NCBI RefSeq assembly: GCF_002056795.1
Contig: NZ_CP020104.1
Location: 7,139,501-7,203,500 of the forward strand
Source: Spirosoma aerolatum
GTDB taxonomy: Bacteria > Bacteroidota > Bacteroidia > Cytophagales > Spirosomataceae
DNA: 64,000 bases
Direction of reading: 5' to 3'
Shown: piece by piece, positions 1 to 9,353 of the stretch
Position numbering within the stretch: the stretch's first letter is position 1
How the letters are laid out: each line of letters starts with the position of its first letter
Notes under the pieces: model-generated
Told to the model about the DNA's origin: nothing
Database searches by the model: none
The model's input: the letters and a program-made list of their open reading frames with translations, nothing else
Program-made: the position numbers and the translations under genes

Positions 1-249
1 GTCCTGGAACAGGGTGCCGTTATTGTCGATGTTCGTTCGGCGGGGGAGTTTGCCGGAGGTCATGCCAAAGGGGCCGTAAACATCCCACTAGACCAGCTTG
101 AGACGAAACTAAACAAGATCAAAGGCTATCAGAAACCGGTTGTGGTCTGCTGTGCTTCGGGTATGCGGAGTGCCCGCGCCAAAGCGTTCTTAGCCAGTCA
201 CGGCGTAGCCAATGTACACGATGCCGGTAGCTGGCGAAATCTGGAATAG
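1..249 (+). CDS. Rhodanese-like domain protein, C-terminal part (cut by window start)
   Basis: An open frame runs from the first base of the window to a TAG at 247-249 and gives 82 residues of a rhodanese (sulfurtransferase) domain. It opens with the VxDVR(S/T)xxE(F/Y)xxGH-type motif (seen as VDVRSAGEFAGGH) and ends shortly after the active-site loop CCASGMRS. That loop has the cysteine expected to carry a persulfide and fits CxxGxR. The family moves sulfane sulfur from thiosulfate, glutathione persulfide or protein persulfides to thiol acceptors. The N-terminus and any fused domain lie outside the window. It converges with the OsmC gene across a 32-bp perfect inverted repeat and sits at the edge of a persulfide-handling cluster, which fits its role. 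Confidence 0.85.
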   Translation, partial: VLEQGAVIVDVRSAGEFAGGHAKGAVNIPLDQLETKLNKIKGYQKPVVVCCASGMRSARAKAFLASHGVANVHDAGSWRNLE

Positions 250-868: not shown

Positions 869-2281
869 TTAAAGAAGTGTAGTTGGACACACGTAATCAG
901 TAAGCGGTAGGTTCCCGGTCTTCTTGATGGCTGCAAAGCCACCGGCTACGTCGATCAGATTGGTGAACCCCCGTGCTTTCAGAATCGAGATGGCCACCAT
1001 CGACCGATAGCCACCAGCACAGTGAACGTAATACGTTTTACGACGGTCGATTCGAGCCATGTTGTCGTTCAGGTAATCGAGCGGCAGGTTCTCAGCGCCG
1101 ACAATATGCTCTGACTCAAATTCGCTTTTCCGCCGAACGTCCAGTATGGGTAAATCTGGGTTCTTTTCGTAGCGTTCAACAAACGTATCGGCAGTAACGA
1201 AGGTAATCGTGTCGACCGCCCGGTTTTCTGCCTGCCAGGACGCAAACCCACCCAGCAAATAGCCAATGCAATTGTCGTAGCCAACACGGGCTAGTCGCAG
1301 CACTGCTTCCTCCTCTTTCCCTTCGGGGGCAATCAATAAAATCGGTTGTTTCAGATCAGGCACCAGTGTACCAACCCAGCTAGCAAACTGCCCTTCCAAG
1401 CCAATATTGACCGAGTTCAGAATAAATCCTTTGGCAAACTCCTGGGCCGTTCGAACATCGATCATCAAAGCCCCAACCTCATTGGCGGCTGCTTCGAACG
1501 CAGCTGGCGACAGTGCCTGAGTACCTTGCTGAAGTATCGCATCGACCCGTTCGTAGCCCATTTTATTGAGCACTGCATTTTTCGGAAAATACTGCGGAGG
1601 GGGCATCAGTCCGGCTGTAACTTCCTTCACGAACTCCTCTTTCGAGCGAGCCTGCAAGGCGTAATTGAAGCGTTTCTGATTCCCCAGCGTATCGGTGATT
1701 TCTTTACTCATATTTTTACCACAGGCCGAGCCAGCCCCATGGCCTGGGTACACAATTACCGCATCGGGCAGGGGTAAAATTTTTGTATGCAGGCTGTCGT
1801 ACAGATACCCGGCCAGGTCTTCGCGGGTAAGGTCGGTTTTTACGGCCAGGTCAGGGCGACCAACATCGCCAATAAATAGGGTATCGCCCGTGAAAATGGC
1901 GGTTTCTTTGCCATTCTCGTCGATCAATAAAAACGTCGATGATTCCATCGTATGACCCGGCGTATGCAGCAACCGAATCGTCACCTTGCCTACTGGAAAT
2001 TCCTCGTCGTCTTTAGCGATATGGGCAGTATAACCAGGTTGGGCCGTTGGGCCGAATACGATGGTGGCTCCAGTCTTGGCCGATAGGTCGAGGTGACCCG
2101 ATACAAAGTCGGCATGGAAATGGGTTTCAAAAATGTATTTAATCGTAGCCCCATCGGCAGTTGCCCGTTCGAGATAAGGACTGGTTTCGCGCAGGGGGTC
2201 GATGATAGCCGCTTCGCCTTCACTCTCAATGTAATAAGCGGCCTCGGCCAGACAGCCGGTATAAATTTGCTCTACCTTCAT
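869..2281 (-). CDS. Metallo-beta-lactamase / double rhodanese fusion protein (persulfide dioxygenase-like), copy 1
   Basis: The start is taken at the internal ATG at 2281 (470 aa), which aligns with the second copy; the open frame itself reaches 2311. Residues 1-240 are a metallo-beta-lactamase fold with THFHAD (53-58), H63, HTPGH (106-110), TGDTLF (131-136) and H181, the metal ligand set of persulfide dioxygenase/glyoxalase II-type enzymes. Residues about 262-350 form a rhodanese domain whose active-site loop (IAPEGKEEE) lacks cysteine. Residues about 362-460 form a second rhodanese with a normal loop, HCAGGYRS (Cys421). The family oxidises glutathione persulfide to sulfite or couples this to sulfur transfer. 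Operator 2339-2352 lies about 58 nt upstream, and OsmC follows downstream. The exact substrate is not shown by the sequence. Confidence 0.88.
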   Translation of the reverse strand: MKVEQIYTGCLAEAAYYIESEGEAAIIDPLRETSPYLERATADGATIKYIFETHFHADFVSGHLDLSAKTGATIVFGPTAQPGYTAHIAKDDEEFPVGKVTIRLLHTPGHTMESSTFLLIDENGKETAIFTGDTLFIGDVGRPDLAVKTDLTREDLAGYLYDSLHTKILPLPDAVIVYPGHGAGSACGKNMSKEITDTLGNQKRFNYALQARSKEEFVKEVTAGLMPPPQYFPKNAVLNKMGYERVDAILQQGTQALSPAAFEAAANEVGALMIDVRTAQEFAKGFILNSVNIGLEGQFASWVGTLVPDLKQPILLIAPEGKEEEAVLRLARVGYDNCIGYLLGGFASWQAENRAVDTITFVTADTFVERYEKNPDLPILDVRRKSEFESEHIVGAENLPLDYLNDNMARIDRRKTYYVHCAGGYRSMVAISILKARGFTNLIDVAGGFAAIKKTGNLPLTDYVCPTTLL

Positions 2282-2338
2282 GGTATTTTGATGATTAAAT
2301 GGATAGATCAAAATTGGCTGAAAGGCGAGGCTGCTTCT

Positions 2339-2352
2339 GTGATGTATGTTAC
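2339..2352. promoter_or_regulatory. Predicted Crp/Fnr-type operator A, upstream of MBL-rhodanese copy 1
   Basis: The site is GTGATGTATGTTAC, inside TGTGAT...GTTACA. It keeps the half-sites and spacing (GTGAY-N4-GTTAC) of the sites at 3725, 6845 and 9340, though the central four bases differ. It begins 58 nt upstream of the ATG at 2281. The binding protein is inferred to be the Crp/Fnr regulator encoded at 9420-10073. Confidence 0.55.
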
Positions 2353-2387
2353 AGAGAGTACATGATTATCGTCAGTTTAGACTCGGT

Positions 2388-2870
2388 TCAGTGAGGTAGT
2401 TTTTCTCGTAGATACCCATACACCCACGTACCCGCCACAGCACTCAGCAAGGTAGCCACTACAACTACATAACCGCTACCAATCTGGGCAAACAATGGAC
2501 CCGGACAGGCCCCTGTAATAACCCACCCAAGGCCAAACAACAAGCCACCAAAAATTTGCCCTTTGTTGAACGCCTTGGTGTGAAATTCGACCGTTTCACC
2601 CGCCAGTGTTTTGATCCTGAAGCGTTTAATGAGCCATACCGACAGCATAGCGACCAGCACCGCCGAGCCAATAACGCCATACATATGGAAGCTCTGCATC
2701 CGGAACATTTCCTGAATACGAAACCACGAAATGATTTCAGCTTTTACGAACACAATGCCGAACATGACCCCAACCATCAGGAACTTGAGATTGGCAAGAC
2801 CGCTTTCGGCTTTTTTCATATCGTTGGGCGCATCGCACGCCAACGCATCAAAGTTTTCTATGTGTTGCAT
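2388..2870 (-). CDS. DUF6691/YeeE-YedE half-transporter
   Basis: This 160-residue membrane protein has about four hydrophobic segments and the signature GACPGPLFAQIG (from about residue 120). That is the cysteine-containing motif of YeeE/YedE (thiosulfate or sulfur-compound) transporters. It matches the C-terminal half of the split two-gene form, in which this DUF6691 protein pairs with a YeeE/YedE partner. The partner gene ends 4 nt upstream, so the pair is almost certainly co-translated and assembles into one transporter. In YeeE (TsuA) conserved cysteines relay thiosulfate across the membrane; the equivalent cysteines in both halves here suggest the same chemistry. The transported compound is inferred. 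Confidence 0.85.
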   Translation of the reverse strand: MQHIENFDALACDAPNDMKKAESGLANLKFLMVGVMFGIVFVKAEIISWFRIQEMFRMQSFHMYGVIGSAVLVAMLSVWLIKRFRIKTLAGETVEFHTKAFNKGQIFGGLLFGLGWVITGACPGPLFAQIGSGYVVVVATLLSAVAGTWVYGYLREKLPH

Positions 2871-2874
2871 AATT

Positions 2875-3447
2875 CTAGAACCATTTCATCAGGTAAGGCA
2901 GAATCAGGTGGGTCATCGTGAAACCACCGATCATAAAACAACAGGTGGCTATCAACGACGGCCATTGCAGATTCGACAAGCCCGTAATAGAATGACCAGC
3001 TGTACAGCCACCCGCCCAGCGCGTACCGAAGCCTACCAGAAACCCACCAACTACAAAAAATATCAGTCCTTTCAGGGTAAACAGATTGGCAGTATTAAAT
3101 AAGTCGGCGGGCATCAGTCCCGAAAAGTCCTGTATGCCAAGCACCCTAAGGTCAGAAATGGTAGCGGGAGCAAGTTGAATAGCAGTTGGATTTTCCAGAA
3201 AATTAGCCGCCAGAAAACCACCAAGCAGCACACCCGTTACAAAAAACAAATTCCAGATTTCCCGTTTCCAGTTGTACTGAAAAAACGGAATACCAGCGGG
3301 TAGGCAGGCAGCACAGATATGCCGAAGCGACGACGAAATACCGAATGATTTATTGCCGATCAGTAACAGGGTTGGAACGGTTAGGCCGATCAGTGGCCCG
3401 GCCACATACCAGGGCCAGGGCTTACGAATGAGGTCGATAAACTCCAT
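2875..3447 (-). CDS. YeeE/YedE family sulfur-compound transporter subunit
   Basis: This 190-residue protein has five or so hydrophobic stretches and the family signature WAGGCTAGHSITGLS (from about residue 145), which carries the cysteine proposed to contact the sulfur substrate. It is the first gene of a two-gene unit; the DUF6691 half follows after 4 nt. The ATG at 3447 gives MEFIDLIRKPWPWY, a normal start for the family. Upstream lies a 411-nt divergent region shared with a ClC channel and holding operator 3725-3738. It probably imports thiosulfate or another reduced sulfur species for the rhodanese and dioxygenase proteins nearby. Confidence 0.87.
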   Translation of the reverse strand: MEFIDLIRKPWPWYVAGPLIGLTVPTLLLIGNKSFGISSSLRHICAACLPAGIPFFQYNWKREIWNLFFVTGVLLGGFLAANFLENPTAIQLAPATISDLRVLGIQDFSGLMPADLFNTANLFTLKGLIFFVVGGFLVGFGTRWAGGCTAGHSITGLSNLQWPSLIATCCFMIGGFTMTHLILPYLMKWF

Positions 3448-3858
3448 GAATTGATTGATAAACGATAGTTGAGAATTAAATTGGTGCCTACCTACCCGAT
3501 TGATTGTCGTAGGCTACCTATTGAATAGTCGTGGAGATTGATAACCCCCGCCCTACTCCCCAGGCGTATACATCACTCAACTCATCCAGATAAACTGATT
3601 GACCCCTACCATCGACACATTAGCCGCAAGTATGGCCATTAGCCCGTAGACCAGAAACGTCCGATCAACCCCTATGTTTTGTTGAGTAATTTCACAAAGC
3701 TCCTCAGACGACCGACTGTTTTCCGTGACAATTGTTACATAGCGTATTTAAACTCGCCGAAACAAGGGTTTTATGATTAAGATGAATTGCAACTAGTCCC
3801 CATTCTAGTAAAGAAACGACTTACCTTAACACATAGGCCGCTAACGGGTTAAACGACC
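3448..3858. other. Divergent intergenic region with operator and a possible coding relic
   Basis: This 411-nt region separates the YeeE/YedE gene (minus) from the ClC gene (plus). It contains operator 3725-3738. On the minus strand, 3582-3740 is open and would read as a membrane-type peptide (GLMAILAANVSMVGV), but it has no suitable ATG until 22 codons before its stop, so I do not call a gene. No other structure stands out. Confidence 0.5.
3725..3738. promoter_or_regulatory. Predicted Crp/Fnr-type operator B, between YeeE/YedE and ClC genes
   Basis: GTGACAATTGTTAC is the most symmetric of the GTTAC-type sites in the cluster (centre AATT, one off-pair per arm). It shares the flank TTTCC with sites D and E. 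It begins 121 nt upstream of the ClC start and ends 278 nt upstream of the YeeE/YedE start, so it may serve either or both genes. Confidence 0.55.
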
Positions 3859-5184
3859 ATGCGCATCCATGAAGAACTGGTTTTGTTTTTTAGTGTCCTT
3901 AAATGGGTCATTCTGTCGGTACTGATTGGTTGTCTGACGGGTCTGGCGGCATCGGGCTTCATTCTCTTTATTCATTATGTGATCGAGCAAAGCAATCACT
4001 ATCAGTATGTATTTTATTGGCTTCCACTCAGCTTTTTCGTCGCTAACCTACTGAGTCAGTTTGTCTTAAAACATCATATTGGCACCGATGCCCTGATTGC
4101 AGCCATCAACCGAAACTTTGGCAAAATCGAAGGAAGCTTCGTTCCTACCAAAATCATAAATGTCATCCTGATTCTGGCTACGGGAGGATCGGCGGGTAAA
4201 GAAAGTCCGTGTGCACAAATCGGAGCGGGATTAGGCAGTTTCTGCGCCAATCTATTCCGAGTTGATGATATTGACCGACGAAAAATGGTGCTATGTGGCT
4301 TTTGTGCGGGTTTCTCCTGTGTGTTTGGCGCTCCCATTGCAGGGGCATTGTTCGGCATTGAAGTACTGGCCGTAGGCGTTATTCTCTACGATGTGCTACT
4401 ACCCGCTTTCGTGGCTTCGATCACGGCCTATCAGATTTCCTCGGCGTTGGGGGTCACTTTTTTCTATTACCCGCTTCAGTTTGTTCCGGCATTCGGCCGA
4501 GGTTTCTTCCTGCAATTGCTGGGTGGTGGCATCTTCTTCGGGCTTTGCGCCTATGGGCTGATTCGGGCAATTCAATCCAGTACATCGGTAGTAAATTCCA
4601 TTCCAATCTGGCGCCCCTGGAAAGGCTTGTTGGGCGGTGTGGTACTGGTTGGCCTGACACTTTTGTTCTCCCGCGATTATCTGGGCCTGGGGCTCAATCT
4701 GATGGAAAATGCGATCGAAGGACATCCCGTGAGGTCGTATACTTTTTTGTTGAAAGCCCTCTTCACGGTTATTACCCTGAGCATCAGCCGGAGTGGAAGC
4801 GTTATTACACCCACTTTATTTATTGGCGCTACGGCAGGTAGTTTTTACGCTGACCTTATCGGAGCAGATCATTCAACATTCGCGGCCATTGGCTTTGTAA
4901 GTCTGCTGGCGGGTTCGGCCAACACGCCCATTGCCTGTAGCATTTTAGCCATCGAACTGTTTGGCGCTGAGGTTGCCCCCTACGCAGCTATTTCCTGCGT
5001 TATTAGCTTTCTGATGTCCGGCCATCGTAGCCTGTACGCATCGCAGGTTCTTACTATACCCAAGTCCAGTGCAATACCAACCGAAATTGGCCAGGAATTC
5101 AACGCCATGGTATCACCCATAATTCGATGGCGGGTTCATGTACCAAACTGGTTAAAAAAGATAGCTCAGCGTTTTCGTAGGTAA
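3859..5184 (+). CDS. ClC family voltage-gated chloride channel/antiporter
   Basis: A 441-residue ClC protein with roughly ten to twelve hydrophobic helices. The selectivity-filter motif GREGP appears as GKESP (113-117), keeping the gating glutamate at 115. The segment GFSCVFGAPIAGALFGIE follows, and the third filter strand reads GSVITPTLFIGATAGS (about 308-323). The usual first motif GSGIP is replaced by a GTDAL segment, so anion selectivity may differ from standard Cl- transporters. There is no C-terminal CBS pair. It is the only plus-strand gene in the sulfur cluster apart from the partial rhodanese, and shares a divergent control region (operator 3725) with the sulfur transporter. It may move Cl- to balance charge or export an anion such as sulfite; the latter is speculation. 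Confidence 0.88.
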   Translation: MRIHEELVLFFSVLKWVILSVLIGCLTGLAASGFILFIHYVIEQSNHYQYVFYWLPLSFFVANLLSQFVLKHHIGTDALIAAINRNFGKIEGSFVPTKIINVILILATGGSAGKESPCAQIGAGLGSFCANLFRVDDIDRRKMVLCGFCAGFSCVFGAPIAGALFGIEVLAVGVILYDVLLPAFVASITAYQISSALGVTFFYYPLQFVPAFGRGFFLQLLGGGIFFGLCAYGLIRAIQSSTSVVNSIPIWRPWKGLLGGVVLVGLTLLFSRDYLGLGLNLMENAIEGHPVRSYTFLLKALFTVITLSISRSGSVITPTLFIGATAGSFYADLIGADHSTFAAIGFVSLLAGSANTPIACSILAIELFGAEVAPYAAISCVISFLMSGHRSLYASQVLTIPKSSAIPTEIGQEFNAMVSPIIRWRVHVPNWLKKIAQRFRR

Positions 5185-5205
5185 CCCTAAAAATCGACCG
5201 CAAAC

Positions 5206-5239
5206 ACGAACGCCACGGGATCATCCCATGGCGCCGTTT
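5206..5239. terminator. Hairpin between convergent ClC and thioredoxin genes
   Basis: CGCCACGGGA and TCCCATGGCG form a 10-bp stem with one mismatch around a 3-nt loop (5211-5233), flanked by further A/T-rich complementarity. It sits between the ClC stop and the thioredoxin stop of convergent genes, so a bidirectional terminator is the simplest reading. Confidence 0.45.
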
Positions 5240-5272
5240 TCGTCCAAGTTAAGAAAAGTGGGTAATGATTAT

Positions 5273-5599
5273 TTATCGGGCTGGGGCCGCTGCAAGCTGA
5301 TTCACTACGTATTCCAGTTGCCGAGCCTCGGTTATACCTGACTGTCGCCAAACGACCCGCCCTTTTTGAAACAGGATAAGGGTGGGTACACCCTGAATCC
5401 GGTATGAACTGGCAACGGTAGGGCTTTGGTCGACATCAATTTTCAAGACGCGGACTCGGTCGCCCATGTGTCCGGCAAACTCGTTCAGAATAGGGGTCAT
5501 CATTTTACAGGGCCCGCACCATTCGGCAGAGAAATCGACGAGGACGGGGATATCGCCCTGGATGATTTCATTAAACGTTTCTTTTTTCGGCGTTTCCAT
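5273..5599 (-). CDS. Thioredoxin
   Basis: This 108-residue protein is a standard thioredoxin with the active site WCGPC (about residues 27-31) followed by KMMTPILNEF, and the cis-proline motif GVPTL near residue 76. It reduces disulfides and persulfides in the cytoplasm; there is no signal peptide. It is the last gene of a tight operon, and its start overlaps the end of the DUF6132-like gene by 29 nt, indicating translational coupling. Its place among sulfane-sulfur genes suggests it serves as the reductant that releases sulfide or sulfite from protein persulfides. I do not assign a symbol because other thioredoxins in the genome are unseen. Confidence 0.9.
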   Translation of the reverse strand: METPKKETFNEIIQGDIPVLVDFSAEWCGPCKMMTPILNEFAGHMGDRVRVLKIDVDQSPTVASSYRIQGVPTLILFQKGRVVWRQSGITEARQLEYVVNQLAAAPAR

Positions 5600-5804
5600 A
5601 GGTATTCGTTCGTTTTTGCCTGATTTGATGAAGCATATCGCCCAGCAAAAATCCGGTGGCAGCTCCCCAAATGGTCATCGTTTGCCAATGCGATTGTATC
5701 GGGCAATGCCCGGTCAAACAGCCAATCTCGCGCCAGTACACGAACCCACCCACGGCTCCCAGCAAAGCACCAACCCATTGCCATCGGTTACTATACTTCT
5801 TCAT
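5571..5804 (-). CDS. DUF6132-like small membrane protein
   Basis: A 77-residue protein with a hydrophobic hairpin-type layout: one segment near residues 10-30, then IGCLTGHCPI (about 27-36), then a second hydrophobic segment around 44-60 and a basic tail. The CxxxxC pair next to the membrane resembles the DUF6132 family, often found beside thioredoxin and rhodanese genes; no function is known. It overlaps the upstream gene by 14 nt and the downstream thioredoxin by 29 nt, so all three are co-translated. The cysteine pair could form a redox or sulfur-relay site at the membrane face; that is inference. Confidence 0.7.
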   Translation of the reverse strand: MKKYSNRWQWVGALLGAVGGFVYWREIGCLTGHCPIQSHWQTMTIWGAATGFLLGDMLHQIRQKRTNTYGNAEKRNV

Positions 5805-6036
5805 ATGGTATCTCGTCCAGAGCTTCCTTTGTATTCACTTTGCTCATAGGCGTTCGCCTGGGAATGTCGCAGCCAGCCGCCCCACAGCCCATGTTCAACA
5901 GGCTCTGCAACAGCAGTATACCACCCATCAGGCCAAGCAGCGGCTGACGATCCGTAATGGCACTCCAGATGATGAGGCTTCCGGCTATTAACCGGACAAT
6001 CCGCATGACATCCCAGTTTTTCAGTAAAGTTTCCAT
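5791..6036 (-). CDS. Small membrane protein, DUF2892-like, with GCGAAGC cysteine motif
   Basis: An 81-residue protein with two hydrophobic segments (about 14-28 and 34-48) followed by NMGCGAAGCD and a short charged tail. The layout resembles the YgaP-type transmembrane domain (DUF2892), which in Escherichia coli is fused to a rhodanese. Here it is free-standing beside separate rhodanese and thioredoxin proteins. It is 9 nt after the next upstream DUF2892 gene and overlaps the following gene by 14 nt. The CxxxxC pair at the end of the second helix recalls that of the neighbouring DUF6132-like protein. Function unknown; membrane sulfur or disulfide handling is a guess from context. Confidence 0.68.
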   Translation of the reverse strand: METLLKNWDVMRIVRLIAGSLIIWSAITDRQPLLGLMGGILLLQSLLNMGCGAAGCDIPRRTPMSKVNTKEALDEIPYEEV

Positions 6037-6045
6037 AGGCTATGG

Positions 6046-6261
6046 TTAATTGGCGTGTTTTCGGGCCCGGTTGGTTCGAATGCCAAACGGCAGATAGAGC
6101 GGACAAGTACTAACCAGGCTGGTAGCGATGAATATGGCAGCAACCACCAAACTTATCATGCCCCAGGTGCCGGTAAGAATATCTGTCGCAAACAGGGCAA
6201 TTAGTATCACGGCAATAATAATCCGAATGATTCGGTCAGCAGAACCCATGTTCTTTTTCAT
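6046..6261 (-). CDS. DUF2892 (YgaP-type) inner-membrane protein
   Basis: The start is chosen at the ATG at 6261 (MKKNMGSADRIIRI), giving 71 residues; the longer open frame to 6321 would run through operator E and adds an unrelated N-terminus. NMGxxDRxxR followed by a helix, a TWG turn, a second helix and CPLYxxFG is the diagnostic DUF2892 pattern. In YgaP this domain dimerises in the membrane beneath a rhodanese domain. It is the first gene of a four-gene unit ending in thioredoxin, and operator 6308-6321 lies 47 nt upstream. Confidence 0.82.
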   Translation of the reverse strand: MKKNMGSADRIIRIIIAVILIALFATDILTGTWGMISLVVAAIFIATSLVSTCPLYLPFGIRTNRARKHAN

Positions 6262-6307
6262 AGCTGTATTTTTTAGGCTAAGTACGACTAGCTGTAAACC
6301 TGTTTCC

Positions 6308-6321
6308 GTGATAAAAATCAC
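6308..6321. promoter_or_regulatory. Predicted Crp/Fnr-type operator E, upstream of the DUF2892-thioredoxin unit
   Basis: GTGATAAAAATCAC has perfectly inverted 5-bp arms (GTGAT/ATCAC) with the same N4 spacing as the GTTAC-type sites and the same TTTCC left flank as sites B and D. It begins 47 nt upstream of the ATG at 6261, between the DUF983 gene and the DUF2892 gene, so the downstream unit may have its own promoter. Confidence 0.55.
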
Positions 6322-6329
6322 ATAACCAA

Positions 6330-6755
6330 CTATTGCAACGCCTTCGAATTCGCTTTCATTTGCAAGGAGTTACCAGCCATTCTTGCCATTTCCGGTCGAT
6401 AATTCACAAAAAAATTGATCCAGGTTCGTCGGGCAAGCCGAAAAAAGAAGGGAGTCAGAATTATTAGCGACGGCAGGAGGACGATCAGATAGTAGTCCAG
6501 ATTGATGTCCAGTATGGCATAAAAGAGTACGAAGGAGCTAATGATAAAGGCTACGTAATAGGCATAGCTCACATACATGGCTCCGGTAAAAAAGCCCGGC
6601 TCCGGCGAATACCGCAGATGGCAATGGCTGCACTCCTCGTGCATTTTGTCGAACTGTTTCAGGTTATAGGCGCTTTTACTCACAAAAAAATCACCTTCCT
6701 GGCAACGTGGGCATTTATTGAAAAGAATGCTATTGAGTTTGGTTCCCTTTAACAT
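6330..6755 (-). CDS. DUF983 family membrane protein
   Basis: A 141-residue protein with an N-terminal zinc-ribbon-like pair of CxxC motifs, CPRC (about 15-18) and CSHC (about 42-45), then two strong hydrophobic segments (about 57-80 and 85-105) and a basic tail. This matches DUF983, a family seen in Bacteroidota and Alphaproteobacteria, sometimes beside cytochrome oxidase genes, without a proven function. The ATG at 6755 gives MLKGTKLNSILFNKCPRC, the expected start. Operator C lies about 90 nt upstream. It may be read through into the DUF2892 unit, which also has its own operator. Confidence 0.82.
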   Translation of the reverse strand: MLKGTKLNSILFNKCPRCQEGDFFVSKSAYNLKQFDKMHEECSHCHLRYSPEPGFFTGAMYVSYAYYVAFIISSFVLFYAILDINLDYYLIVLLPSLIILTPFFFRLARRTWINFFVNYRPEMARMAGNSLQMKANSKALQ

Positions 6756-6844
6756 GGCCTTATCGAGTTTATGTGCTGATCGGGCCGTTCATTGGCTGGC
6801 GATCACTTATAGCTCAAAAGTAGCCGGCCATTTTACCGAAATCT

Positions 6845-6858
6845 GTGATAATTGTTAC
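6845..6858. promoter_or_regulatory. Predicted Crp/Fnr-type operator C, upstream of DUF983
   Basis: GTGATAATTGTTAC is identical over 14 bp to site D at 9340. It begins 90 nt upstream of the DUF983 ATG and lies in the 274-nt gap after the second MBL-rhodanese gene. Confidence 0.58.
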
Positions 6859-7029
6859 ACAGGAGGCTGATTCTGGTAAGTGAATAAATCCTGAAGCTGT
6901 TTAAACTTTTCTGCTCAGGCCAGGAAAACGGACGTTTTCGCTCCATTCGTAAATGTTTAAATAGCTTACTTGTGAATTATGCCGAAGAAGTTTTTGACAG
7001 GATGTACAGAATTTTATCGAAACGGGTAA

Positions 7030-8454
7030 TCAATCCTTCTTTAGGGTGCTTGGGCAAACGTAATCGGTCGTGTTGATGCGTCCACTTTTCTGAATAGCCC
7101 CGAAGCCCCCGGCCACATCGATCACGTTATCGTACCCCCGCGATTTCAGGATAGAGGCCGCCATCATTGACCGATAGCCGCCTGCACAATGCACATAGAA
7201 TGGTTCGTTTTTAGGAAACTCGGCCATATACTCGCTGATGTAATCGAGCGGAACATTCTTAGCTCCGTCGATATGCTCAGCTGTAAACTCACCAGGTTTC
7301 CGAACGTCGATAACCGGAATAAGCCCCTGTTCGAGCCGCTCAGCCAGTTCATCAGCCGAAATCGACGTGATGGTGTCTACTTCTTTGCCACTGGATACCC
7401 AACTGCTAAAGCCACCTTCCAGATACCCCAGTACCTGATCGTAACCTACACGGGCCAGCCGGGTCAGCGTTTCCTGTTCAGTACCAGGTTCGCACACCAG
7501 TAAAAGTTCCTGCCGAACGTCGGGAACAAGGGCACCCACCCAGGGCGCAAACTGCCCACCCAGGCCAATATTGATCGAGTTGGGAATAAAACCCTTCGCA
7601 AACACCTGCGCCGACCGCACATCGAGTACCACCGCCCCCGTTTCGTTGGCAGCCGCTTCGAAAGCTTCCGGGCTCAGCGGTTGGGCACCCCGGTCCAATA
7701 CAGTATCGATGCTTTCGTAGCCCTGCTTGTTCATCATCACGTTTTGCGGAAAATATTTCGGGGGAGCCAGTAGCCCATCGGTAACCTCCTTAATAAATTC
7801 GTCGCGGGTCATTGTAGCCCGAAGCGCATAGTTGTATAGTTTCTGGTTCCCCAGTGTATCGGTGGTTTCCTTGCTCATGTTTTTGCCACAGGCCGAACCG
7901 GCACCATGAGCCGGATATACGATCACATCGTTGGGCAGGGTCATGATTTTGGTACGGAGCGAGTCGAAGAGATAGCCCGCCAGATCGTTCATGGTCAGGT
8001 CTGATTTCTGGGCCAGATCGGGACGGCCAACATCACCAATGAACAGCGTATCCCCACTAAACAAGGCTTTCTCGTTGCCCTCTTCATCAATCAGCAGATA
8101 ACAGGTTGACTCCATCGTATGGCCCGGTGTGTGCAGCACCCGGATTTTCACATGTCCTAATGGCAATTCTTCGCCGTCTTTAGCAATATAAGCCTGAAAA
8201 CCCGTCTGGGCATTCGGACCGTAGACAATCGTTGCGCCAGTCTGTTTAGCCAGATCAAGGTGCCCCGACACGAAATCAGCATGAAAATGAGTTTCCAGAA
8301 CGTATTTTATCGTAGCCCCTGCACGCTCGGCACGTTCTATATAAGGCTTTACTTCCCGGAGTGGATCAATAATGGCTACTTCGCCCTGGCTCTCAATATA
8401 ATAAGCGCCCTGCGCAAGGCAACCCGTATAAATCTGTTCTATGTTCATGTTCAT
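7030..8454 (-). CDS. Metallo-beta-lactamase / double rhodanese fusion protein (persulfide dioxygenase-like), copy 2
   Basis: A 474-residue paralogue of the protein at 869-2281, collinear over its whole length. The metal ligands THFHAD, HTPGH, SGDTLF and PAHG are all present. The first rhodanese domain has a cysteine in its loop (LLVCEPGTEQE) where copy 1 has none, but lacks the usual arginine; the second has the canonical HCAGGYRS loop. Initiation may be at 8454 or at the second Met (8448). It lies 33 nt downstream of TauE/SafE and shares its operator (9340). Together the pair probably oxidises or exports sulfur from persulfides. Two collinear copies within 7 kb suggest duplication and division of labour. 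Confidence 0.88.
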   Translation of the reverse strand: MNMNIEQIYTGCLAQGAYYIESQGEVAIIDPLREVKPYIERAERAGATIKYVLETHFHADFVSGHLDLAKQTGATIVYGPNAQTGFQAYIAKDGEELPLGHVKIRVLHTPGHTMESTCYLLIDEEGNEKALFSGDTLFIGDVGRPDLAQKSDLTMNDLAGYLFDSLRTKIMTLPNDVIVYPAHGAGSACGKNMSKETTDTLGNQKLYNYALRATMTRDEFIKEVTDGLLAPPKYFPQNVMMNKQGYESIDTVLDRGAQPLSPEAFEAAANETGAVVLDVRSAQVFAKGFIPNSINIGLGGQFAPWVGALVPDVRQELLLVCEPGTEQETLTRLARVGYDQVLGYLEGGFSSWVSSGKEVDTITSISADELAERLEQGLIPVIDVRKPGEFTAEHIDGAKNVPLDYISEYMAEFPKNEPFYVHCAGGYRSMMAASILKSRGYDNVIDVAGGFGAIQKSGRINTTDYVCPSTLKKD

Positions 8455-8487
8455 TCGTGTTTGATAACTGGAGAAAAATCGAGTCGA

Positions 8488-9291
8488 TTAAAAAAGAAGC
8501 TCTTTGGCAATGATATAAACACCCATCATGAGTACAAACCAGCCAAAGGCCTTTTTAAGTTTCTCACCGGCTACATACTTGGACAGATACGAACCCACAA
8601 AAATACCAACAATCGAAAGAGCGGTGAATTCGAGTAGAAATGGCCAATCGACCTGCATATTGGACAAATCGCCTAGAAAACCGATCAGTGATTTGGCTGC
8701 AATGATCAGCAATGAGGTGCCAACCGCCATTTTCATGGGCAGCCGGGCCAGCAGTACCAACGCCGGAATAATCAGGAACCCACCCCCGGCGCCCACAATG
8801 CCTGTGAGCGTGCCAACCAATGCCCCTTCGAGGGCAATCATGGGTAGGTTAAAGTGTGGTTCATCAGCTTCCGTATTCGTTTCATTTTTCTTGTCGCGAA
8901 TCATAGACAGCGAAGCGGCCAGCATAACCAGGGCAAAAAATAGCATAATAGCCACATTCCGGCTAAGTGCGAAGGAGTTTATAGTAAGCACCGGGTCGGG
9001 AATAACGGGAACCAGATACTTACGGGTTAAGAAAACAGCCAGGAAGGAAGGAATGGCAAAAACAATAGCCGCCCGATAATTAACCTGCTCGTTTCGCATG
9101 TAATTAACTGAACCGACAAGCGATGTAGCGCCAACAACGAACAGGGAATAGGCTGTGGACAGGACGGGGTTAATCCCCATCATATATACCAGAACAGGAA
9201 GCGTTAAGATACTCCCCCCTCCTCCGATCAGTCCGAGGCTGATGCCAATGAAAATGGAAGCCGAAAAGCCAATTAGTTGAATTGTGGTCAT
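8488..9291 (-). CDS. TauE/SafE family sulfite/organosulfonate exporter-like permease
   Basis: A 267-residue protein with two repeats of a multi-helix unit, each opening with a glycine-rich motif: SLGLIGGGGSILTLPVLVY (about 19-37) and GIVGAGGGFLIIPALVLL (about 164-181). These are the TauE/SafE (DUF81) signatures. Members move sulfite, sulfoacetate, taurine or related anions across the inner membrane. Its gene leads a two-gene unit with the second MBL-rhodanese fusion, and operator 9340-9353 lies 49 nt upstream. Export of sulfite made by the persulfide dioxygenase is the natural reading, but the substrate is inferred. Confidence 0.86.
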   Translation of the reverse strand: MTTIQLIGFSASIFIGISLGLIGGGGSILTLPVLVYMMGINPVLSTAYSLFVVGATSLVGSVNYMRNEQVNYRAAIVFAIPSFLAVFLTRKYLVPVIPDPVLTINSFALSRNVAIMLFFALVMLAASLSMIRDKKNETNTEADEPHFNLPMIALEGALVGTLTGIVGAGGGFLIIPALVLLARLPMKMAVGTSLLIIAAKSLIGFLGDLSNMQVDWPFLLEFTALSIVGIFVGSYLSKYVAGEKLKKAFGWFVLMMGVYIIAKELLF

Positions 9292-9339
9292 GCCCGTTTA
9301 ACTTTTATGCAAAGCAACAGCACGCCCCGAGCCTTTTCC

Positions 9340-9353
9340 GTGATAATTGTTAC
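9340..9353. promoter_or_regulatory. Predicted Crp/Fnr-type operator D, upstream of TauE/SafE and MBL-rhodanese copy 2
   Basis: GTGATAATTGTTAC with the left flank TTTTCC and right flank ACAG. It begins 49 nt upstream of the TauE/SafE ATG and is identical to site C over 14 bp. It lies between the TauE/SafE gene and the Crp/Fnr regulator gene. Confidence 0.6.

Follow-up and report, generated by a model that had tools for sequence, protein, structure and literature searches.

Which protein reads the repeated operators in the sulfur gene cluster of Spirosoma aerolatum, and does it switch the neighbouring genes on or off? The window analysed here, a stretch of 64,000 nucleotides (nt) of contig NZ_CP020104.1 (positions 7,139,501 to 7,203,500), carries this cluster at its left end, together with the gene of a Crp/Fnr-type regulator which we call REG. 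The first-pass annotation of this DNA had taken a family of five operator sites as the mark of a sulfur regulon around that gene. We assign a probability of roughly 0.85 to the reading that a REG dimer binds the operator palindrome and activates six sulfane-sulfur units. In the proposed mechanism REG, as a dimer of the Crp/Fnr family, would bind the imperfect palindrome TnT-GTRAY-N4-RTCAC-GA and would switch on the units of two metallo-beta-lactamase (MBL)-rhodanese proteins (PDOa and PDOb, for persulfide dioxygenase), a TauE exporter, the YeeE pair, the YgaP-like transmembrane protein (YgaP-TM) with thioredoxin, DUF983 and a rhodanese. Acting from about -41.5, it would be a class II activator that replaces the -33 element of the promoters.

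The operator pattern GTGAYNNNNRTYAC occurs at exactly five perfect places in the 64-kb window, and the positions given by the first-pass annotation were all correct:

2339..2352, minus strand: operator 1, upstream of PDOa, whose ATG is 57 nt away; exact match, conserved in relatives
3725..3738, minus strand: operator 2, before the YeeE pair; exact match
6308..6321, minus strand: operator 3, upstream of YgaP-TM, 46 nt from the start codon; exact match
6845..6858, minus strand: operator 4, upstream of DUF983, 89 nt from the start codon; exact match
9340..9353, minus strand: operator 5, in the gap between the REG stop codon and the TauE gene, 48 nt from the start codon of the latter; exact match

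It also holds true that the operators at 6845 and 9340 have the same 14 bp, that those at 3725, 6308 and 9340 have a TTTCC left flank in common, and that three sites lie less than 60 nt from a start codon (57 nt for the MBL-rhodanese gene, which starts at 2281, 46 nt for YgaP-TM and 48 nt for TauE). Operator 2 is farther away, 277 nt from the YeeE start and 120 nt from a divergent CLC gene. The five sites are thus real, but the count was incomplete: a sixth exact operator, GTGACATTTATCAC, stands beyond the left edge of the window, at a distance of 128-115 bases from its first base, and precedes the start of a rhodanese gene by 57 nt. When one mismatch to the pattern was allowed, 29 strand matches were found in the window against 20.7 expected (standard deviation 6.3); since this is near expectation, only the exact operator form stands out.

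Homologs of REG (E <= 1e-20) are present in 66 of 119 relative genomes. In a first set of loci, the best 60 among the 77 regulator places listed, chosen mainly by score and read over up to 20 kb each, the word GTGA-N6-TYAC occurred 84 times within 350 nt before homologs of the cluster genes and 59 times elsewhere. Control spacers N4, N5, N7 and N8 gave 5, 3, 8 and 6 upstream matches in the same loci, the reversed word one and the TTGA word seven, while all six controls were found 32-80 times elsewhere. The connection of the sites with sulfur units, as well as their conservation upstream of orthologous genes, is in this way borne out (84 versus 1-8). Operators of the FNR type were rejected, as the seven upstream TTGA matches are at the control level. 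The loci are not independent, and near-identical relatives (such as L071-L073) are all included in the upstream and box-offset counts; duplicates were removed for the -33 counts given below. In an unbiased enumeration of inverted 4-mers, GTGA-N6-TCAC ranked first in both near and far loci whose regulator has Glu at the position equivalent to residue 181 of CRP, and nothing clear was obtained from six strict loci with Val at that place. A further control employed the persulfide dioxygenase (PDO) homologs, which at E <= 1e-60 are spread more widely than REG (110/119 genomes versus 66/119). A site was present in 17 of 33 PDO upstreams from genomes with REG and in none of the 37 that come from 35 REG-free genomes (p = 1.5e-7; 70 upstreams, the 30 best and 40 picked, of more than 150 listed matches), although the type of PDO paralog is confounded here with the presence of the regulator, because nine off-cluster PDO copies in REG-containing genomes also have no site. 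In L074, L092 and L093 an operator also precedes the regulator gene itself, which suggests autoregulation in these relatives; none precedes REG in the window.

The distance between operator and promoter box is rigid in these loci. Among sites with a start codon 30-150 nt away, A-N-Y-T-T-N-S follows at exactly 23 nt in 39 of 78 cases, and no other offset has more than two. This sequence represents the core of the -7 element TAnnTTTG reported for the primary sigma factor of Bacteroidota (PMC7366714). In 80 other loci with a Val-type regulator (described below), the box stands at +23 in 23 of 39 strand matches to the motif, and any other offset is used at most once. The -33 TTTG was seen in only 2/89 and 1/52 sites, these counts pooling Ala, Thr and Ser with Val. 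The sites are also oriented towards the gene: in 45 pairs the weak half (GTAA) is distal and TCAC gene-proximal, 9 are reversed and in 35 both halves are strong. The following boxes were found in the window:

2309..2315, minus strand: -7 box core AATTTTG of the PDOa unit, offset 23
3695..3701, minus strand: -7 box core AGCTTTG of the YeeE unit, offset 23
6815..6821, minus strand: -7 box core ACTTTTG of the DUF983 unit, offset 23
6277..6283, minus strand: near-form box ACTTAGC of the YgaP-TM unit, offset 24, found by eye; fails the strict test
9310..9316, minus strand: near-form box TGCTTTG of the TauE unit, offset 23, found by eye; fails the strict test

The rhodanese gene beyond the window edge likewise has a near-form box at offset 23, seen by eye. 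With the box at +23 and about five bases between box and start, the centre of the palindrome would fall near -41.5, which we infer to be the class II activator position. The geometry is consistent with such an activator, as the site is fixed, the -7 box is present and the -33 element is missing. With rigid box spacing and no -33 TTTG, these promoters would be expected to depend on an activator at -41.5 rather than on a repressor. Activation by REG therefore appears well supported by geometry, and the first-pass annotation is to be corrected in this respect, as the geometry points to activation.

REG matches PF00027, PF13545 and PF00325, all above cut-off, and its fold matches CRP and FNR structures; it belongs to the Crp/Fnr superfamily, with a beta-roll of the cyclic nucleotide monophosphate (cNMP)-binding type and a Crp-type helix-turn-helix. 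The closest solved relative by sequence is PDB 3dv8 (E = 2.8e-38 with the family profile). The recognition helix reads SREVISR, in which R189, E190 and R194 are equivalent to CRP residues 180, 181 and 185. Both Arg equivalents (CRP-180 and CRP-185) are kept in 62/62 regulators, and position 181 is Glu in 52/62 and Val in 10/62. In CRP it is Glu181 together with Arg185 that recognizes the G4:C4 base pair within TGTGA (PMC11253593). REG would accordingly be expected to recognize DNA in the CRP manner, with R180, E181 and R185 facing GTGA half-sites. Loci L067 and L091 each contain two related regulators; the trees were built without the second ones and without short pieces.

A link between this helix and the operators comes from relatives in which both differ. 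In the upstreams of the strict Val loci, GTAAC-N4-GTAAC was spotted by eye and then tested in the 80 other loci, which are the best 80 of 588 and nearly all from Bacteroidota, with a few metagenome-assembled genomes labelled otherwise. There, GTWAC-N4-RTAAC gave 39 strand matches, against 2, 8 and 8 for the spacers N3, N5 and N6. The scan patterns held the helix RVV[VI]SR, hence the loci, though not their sites, were partly selected for Val. Among sites followed by the box, one or both halves had G4 in 61 of 62 with a Glu regulator, 4 of 35 with Val and 5 of 6 with Ala or Thr, both sets taken together (Glu versus all others, Fisher p = 2e-17); as the cases are related by descent, these counts are not independent. 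Forty later loci, hand-picked from a search with a Val-type regulator as query before helices or sites were seen, included a strict boxed site in 25, and G4 was found in 32/33 with Glu versus 3/12 with Val (p = 2.3e-6). Position 4 of the operator half-site and residue 181 of the REG helix thus appear to change together. A rule connecting residue 181 and operator base has already been described for other Crp/Fnr proteins, with Glu181-to-Pro accompanying GTAACnnnnGTTAC in HcpR2 (PMC1274295); new here are this Crp/Fnr branch, its Glu/Val split and its regulon. A main exception to the covariation is locus L318 (genome G140), where a Val-type regulator occurs with mixed operators, only some of which carry G4.

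Taken together, conservation, fixed promoter geometry, the PDO control and the residue-181 covariation make a strong case for assigning the operator family to REG. The proposal that the Crp/Fnr gene encodes the regulator has thereby gained support, from geometry, covariation and a helix unlike the other readable ones of the genome (see below). Several results weigh on the other side. The strict box at +23 accompanies only three of the six sites of S. aerolatum itself, and many relatives have no strict boxed site (19/50 Glu loci, 56/90 other loci and 15/40 later loci). Besides the site-free PDO copies mentioned above, there are the Val regulators with G4 (4/35 and 3/12). Independent Glu/Val switches on supported branches number only 2-3, for which the sign test gives p = 0.25-0.5; with random pairings of the two supported pairs, 1.7 on average went in the expected direction and 0.0 in the opposite one (p = 0.5). 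Finally, the bare 14-mer taken alone is at background in the whole 7.96-Mb genome, with 82 strand matches versus 94 for the pattern read backwards. This last result is what would be seen if the operators were chance repeats of a common word. A random spread over the genome at an equal rate, which the first-pass annotation had named as grounds for refutation, thus holds in part, for the bare 14-mer, and the earlier idea that the motif defines a regulon from sequence holds at the cluster but not genome-wide. However, the exact motif has 63 distinct places, and 6 of them fall within the 10.2-kb cluster where 0.073 would be expected (Poisson p = 2e-10, somewhat flattered because the stretch is bounded by the sites themselves). 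Outside the cluster, 52 of 57 places lie inside open reading frames (ORFs) of at least 100 amino acids and 5 do not, as checked by script; this crude test puts site 2339 inside a start-extended ORF (5/6 intergenic), and the intergenic Fisher test counted 6/6. None of the 57 outside places has a box core at 23 nt downstream (5/57 have one at offsets 20-24), and therefore no further regulon target is claimed. Cluster sites are set apart from background by clustering, position and promoter box. The chance explanation, refuted by conservation and opposed also by local density and promoter geometry, is practically negligible.

The remaining alternatives concern who acts at the operators, how, and in answer to what. 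The genome of S. aerolatum has 6 HTH_Crp_2 matches, only 3 of them above cut-off, and 21 matches to cNMP-binding domains, many of whose proteins may have divergent DNA-binding ends; it would seem that another Crp-type protein could use the sites. Yet among the five readable HTH_Crp_2 helices only that of REG has R-E-x-x-x-R, and the operators covary with REG's own helix, which makes this very unlikely. REG could instead be HcpR, the regulator of the hybrid cluster protein, whose motifs TGTGAnnnnnnTCACA and GTAACnnnnGTTAC are similar to both forms of the operator described here (PMC1274295). Such an identity is very improbable, as the hybrid cluster (Prismane) family is found in 0/119 genomes versus 5/14 control genomes. 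Repression by REG would agree with the downstream half-site lying over the -33 region, and CstR, SqrR and BigR, known reactive-sulfur regulators, are repressors (PMC9774590). It is nevertheless unlikely, since the rigid -7 spacing and the missing -33 TTTG fit activator-dependent promoters. The most serious rival accepts that REG binds the sites, but lets it answer another signal (redox, nitric oxide, O2 or a small ligand), the sulfur genes being general stress targets. In its favour, a Ser at the place of CRP Ser83 (61/62 regulators) leaves a ligand possible, nitrosative stress is the signal of related HcpR proteins (PMC1274295), and a universal stress protein gene adjoins REG. The neighbours of REG are, on the other hand, mainly sulfur genes: homologs of TauE, PDO, YeeE, rhodanese or YgaP-TM lie near it in 47/60 loci of the first set, 70/80 Val-type loci and 22/40 later loci, and the 57 other motif places in the genome yielded no non-sulfur target. 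We regard this alternative as possible but rather doubtful.

What signal, then, might REG perceive? FNR proper has an N-terminal cysteine cluster, and REG as an FNR proper with [4Fe-4S] was ruled out, as it contains no Cys before residue 84. Glu72 and Arg82 are cyclic AMP (cAMP) contacts of CRP. At the place of Glu72 the 62 aligned regulators all have Met, Leu, Val, Ile, Phe or His and never Glu, and the Arg82 equivalent is Arg in 15/62; REG as a cAMP-responsive CRP proper was ruled out on these grounds, the equivalence of pocket residues being taken from the alignment. Cys84 is invariant (62/62). In the Val-type loci the motif E-[ST]-C-[IV]-M-S was matched in 79/80 (in one the search ended at an earlier Cys), and 61 of the 80 protein pieces have a single cysteine. 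In the structure model, a monomer, the key Cys (residue 80 there) is directly before a short helix, 81-89, with a mean predicted local distance difference test score (pLDDT) of 73. Because the target genes handle sulfur, we propose that REG would be switched by persulfide or polysulfide reacting at Cys84, next to what was once the cAMP pocket; as the most likely signal, we give it about an even chance. The fullest form of our explanation is that a widespread, Bacteroidota-centred Crp/Fnr branch would serve as a reactive-sulfur sensor with a single Cys and as class II activator of persulfide dioxygenase, rhodanese, TauE and YeeE genes, in which Glu-to-Val at 181 rewrote GTGAC-type to GTAAC-type half-sites with the geometry unchanged. 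This combined proposal remains tentative, and its odds are somewhat short of even.

REG and the genes on which it would act are the following, with domains assigned by Pfam:

1..249, plus strand: rhodanese gene, 3' part, its start left of the window; its operator is the sixth site
869..2281, minus strand: PDOa, metallo-beta-lactamase with two rhodanese domains; matches 3tp9 and 3r2u over residues 4-454
2388..3447, minus strand: two half-size YeeE/YedE (Sulf_transp) genes, PF04143
6046..6261, minus strand: YgaP-like transmembrane protein, PF11127
6330..6755, minus strand: DUF983 protein
7030..8454, minus strand: PDOb, second protein with MBL and two rhodanese domains
8488..9291, minus strand: TauE/SafE-family exporter, PF01925
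9420..10073, minus strand: REG, Crp/Fnr regulator of 217 amino acids, with helix SREVISR, invariant Cys84 and a CRP-like model fold

PDB 3r2u is presumably CstB, and PDOa is by its sequence a predicted CstB-like persulfide dioxygenase-rhodanese. The families of the cluster have established functions in persulfide oxidation and in sulfur transfer and transport; the units would read as persulfide oxidation, sulfur transfer and transport of sulfur compounds. Small genes and a thioredoxin gene (5273-5599) continue 3' of the YgaP-TM gene on the same strand, and the operon extents are inferred. A CLC-type channel gene (window 3859-5184) is divergent from the YeeE unit and has the upstream region with operator 2 in common with it; in the relatives' loci L055 and L056 the CLC gene is itself preceded by a site, at 56-59 nt. 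After the rhodanese gene, at about 268-344 of the window, a long, nearly perfect inverted repeat with arms around TTGCGTCTATTGCGCCCTCGCGGTTAGTAC was seen by eye, a terminator or a mobile repeat.

Compared with known systems, REG resembles E. coli CRP in fold, R-E-x-x-x-R helix, GTGA half-site, six bases between GTGA and TCAC and a class II-like position. Unlike CRP, its family has no Glu72, a variable Arg82 equivalent, an invariant Cys beside the pocket and a local regulon. HcpR and HcpR2 are similar in operator forms and in that the operator base goes with residue 181 (PMC1274295), whereas the REG family has Glu or Val at this residue in place of Pro, Ser or Gln, its targets are sulfur genes and no hybrid cluster protein gene occurs in the 119 relatives. 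With CstR, SqrR/BigR and FisR it would share targets, namely persulfide dioxygenase, rhodanese and sulfur transport (PMC9774590; PMC5823870), but those regulators are CsoR-like, ArsR-family and Fis-family proteins, respectively, and REG is Crp/Fnr. PDB 3dv8, a Crp/Fnr regulator without a named function, keeps cysteines aligned to C84 and C90. The main text of a review on reactive-sulfur sensors (PMC9774590) contains neither 'Fnr' nor 'Bacteroid' and names no Crp/Fnr member. The literature titles and abstract openings listed contained no Crp/Fnr sulfur regulator in Bacteroidota, a novelty that is not proven, as 'Crp/Fnr' with its slash is not searchable.

If our explanation is true, REG would be a sulfur-stress regulator of Bacteroidota with a defined operator, a promoter position and a candidate sensing residue. 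Its family would also provide a natural series of recognition helices, with Glu, Val, Ala and Thr at one place, and matching operators in one conserved regulon.

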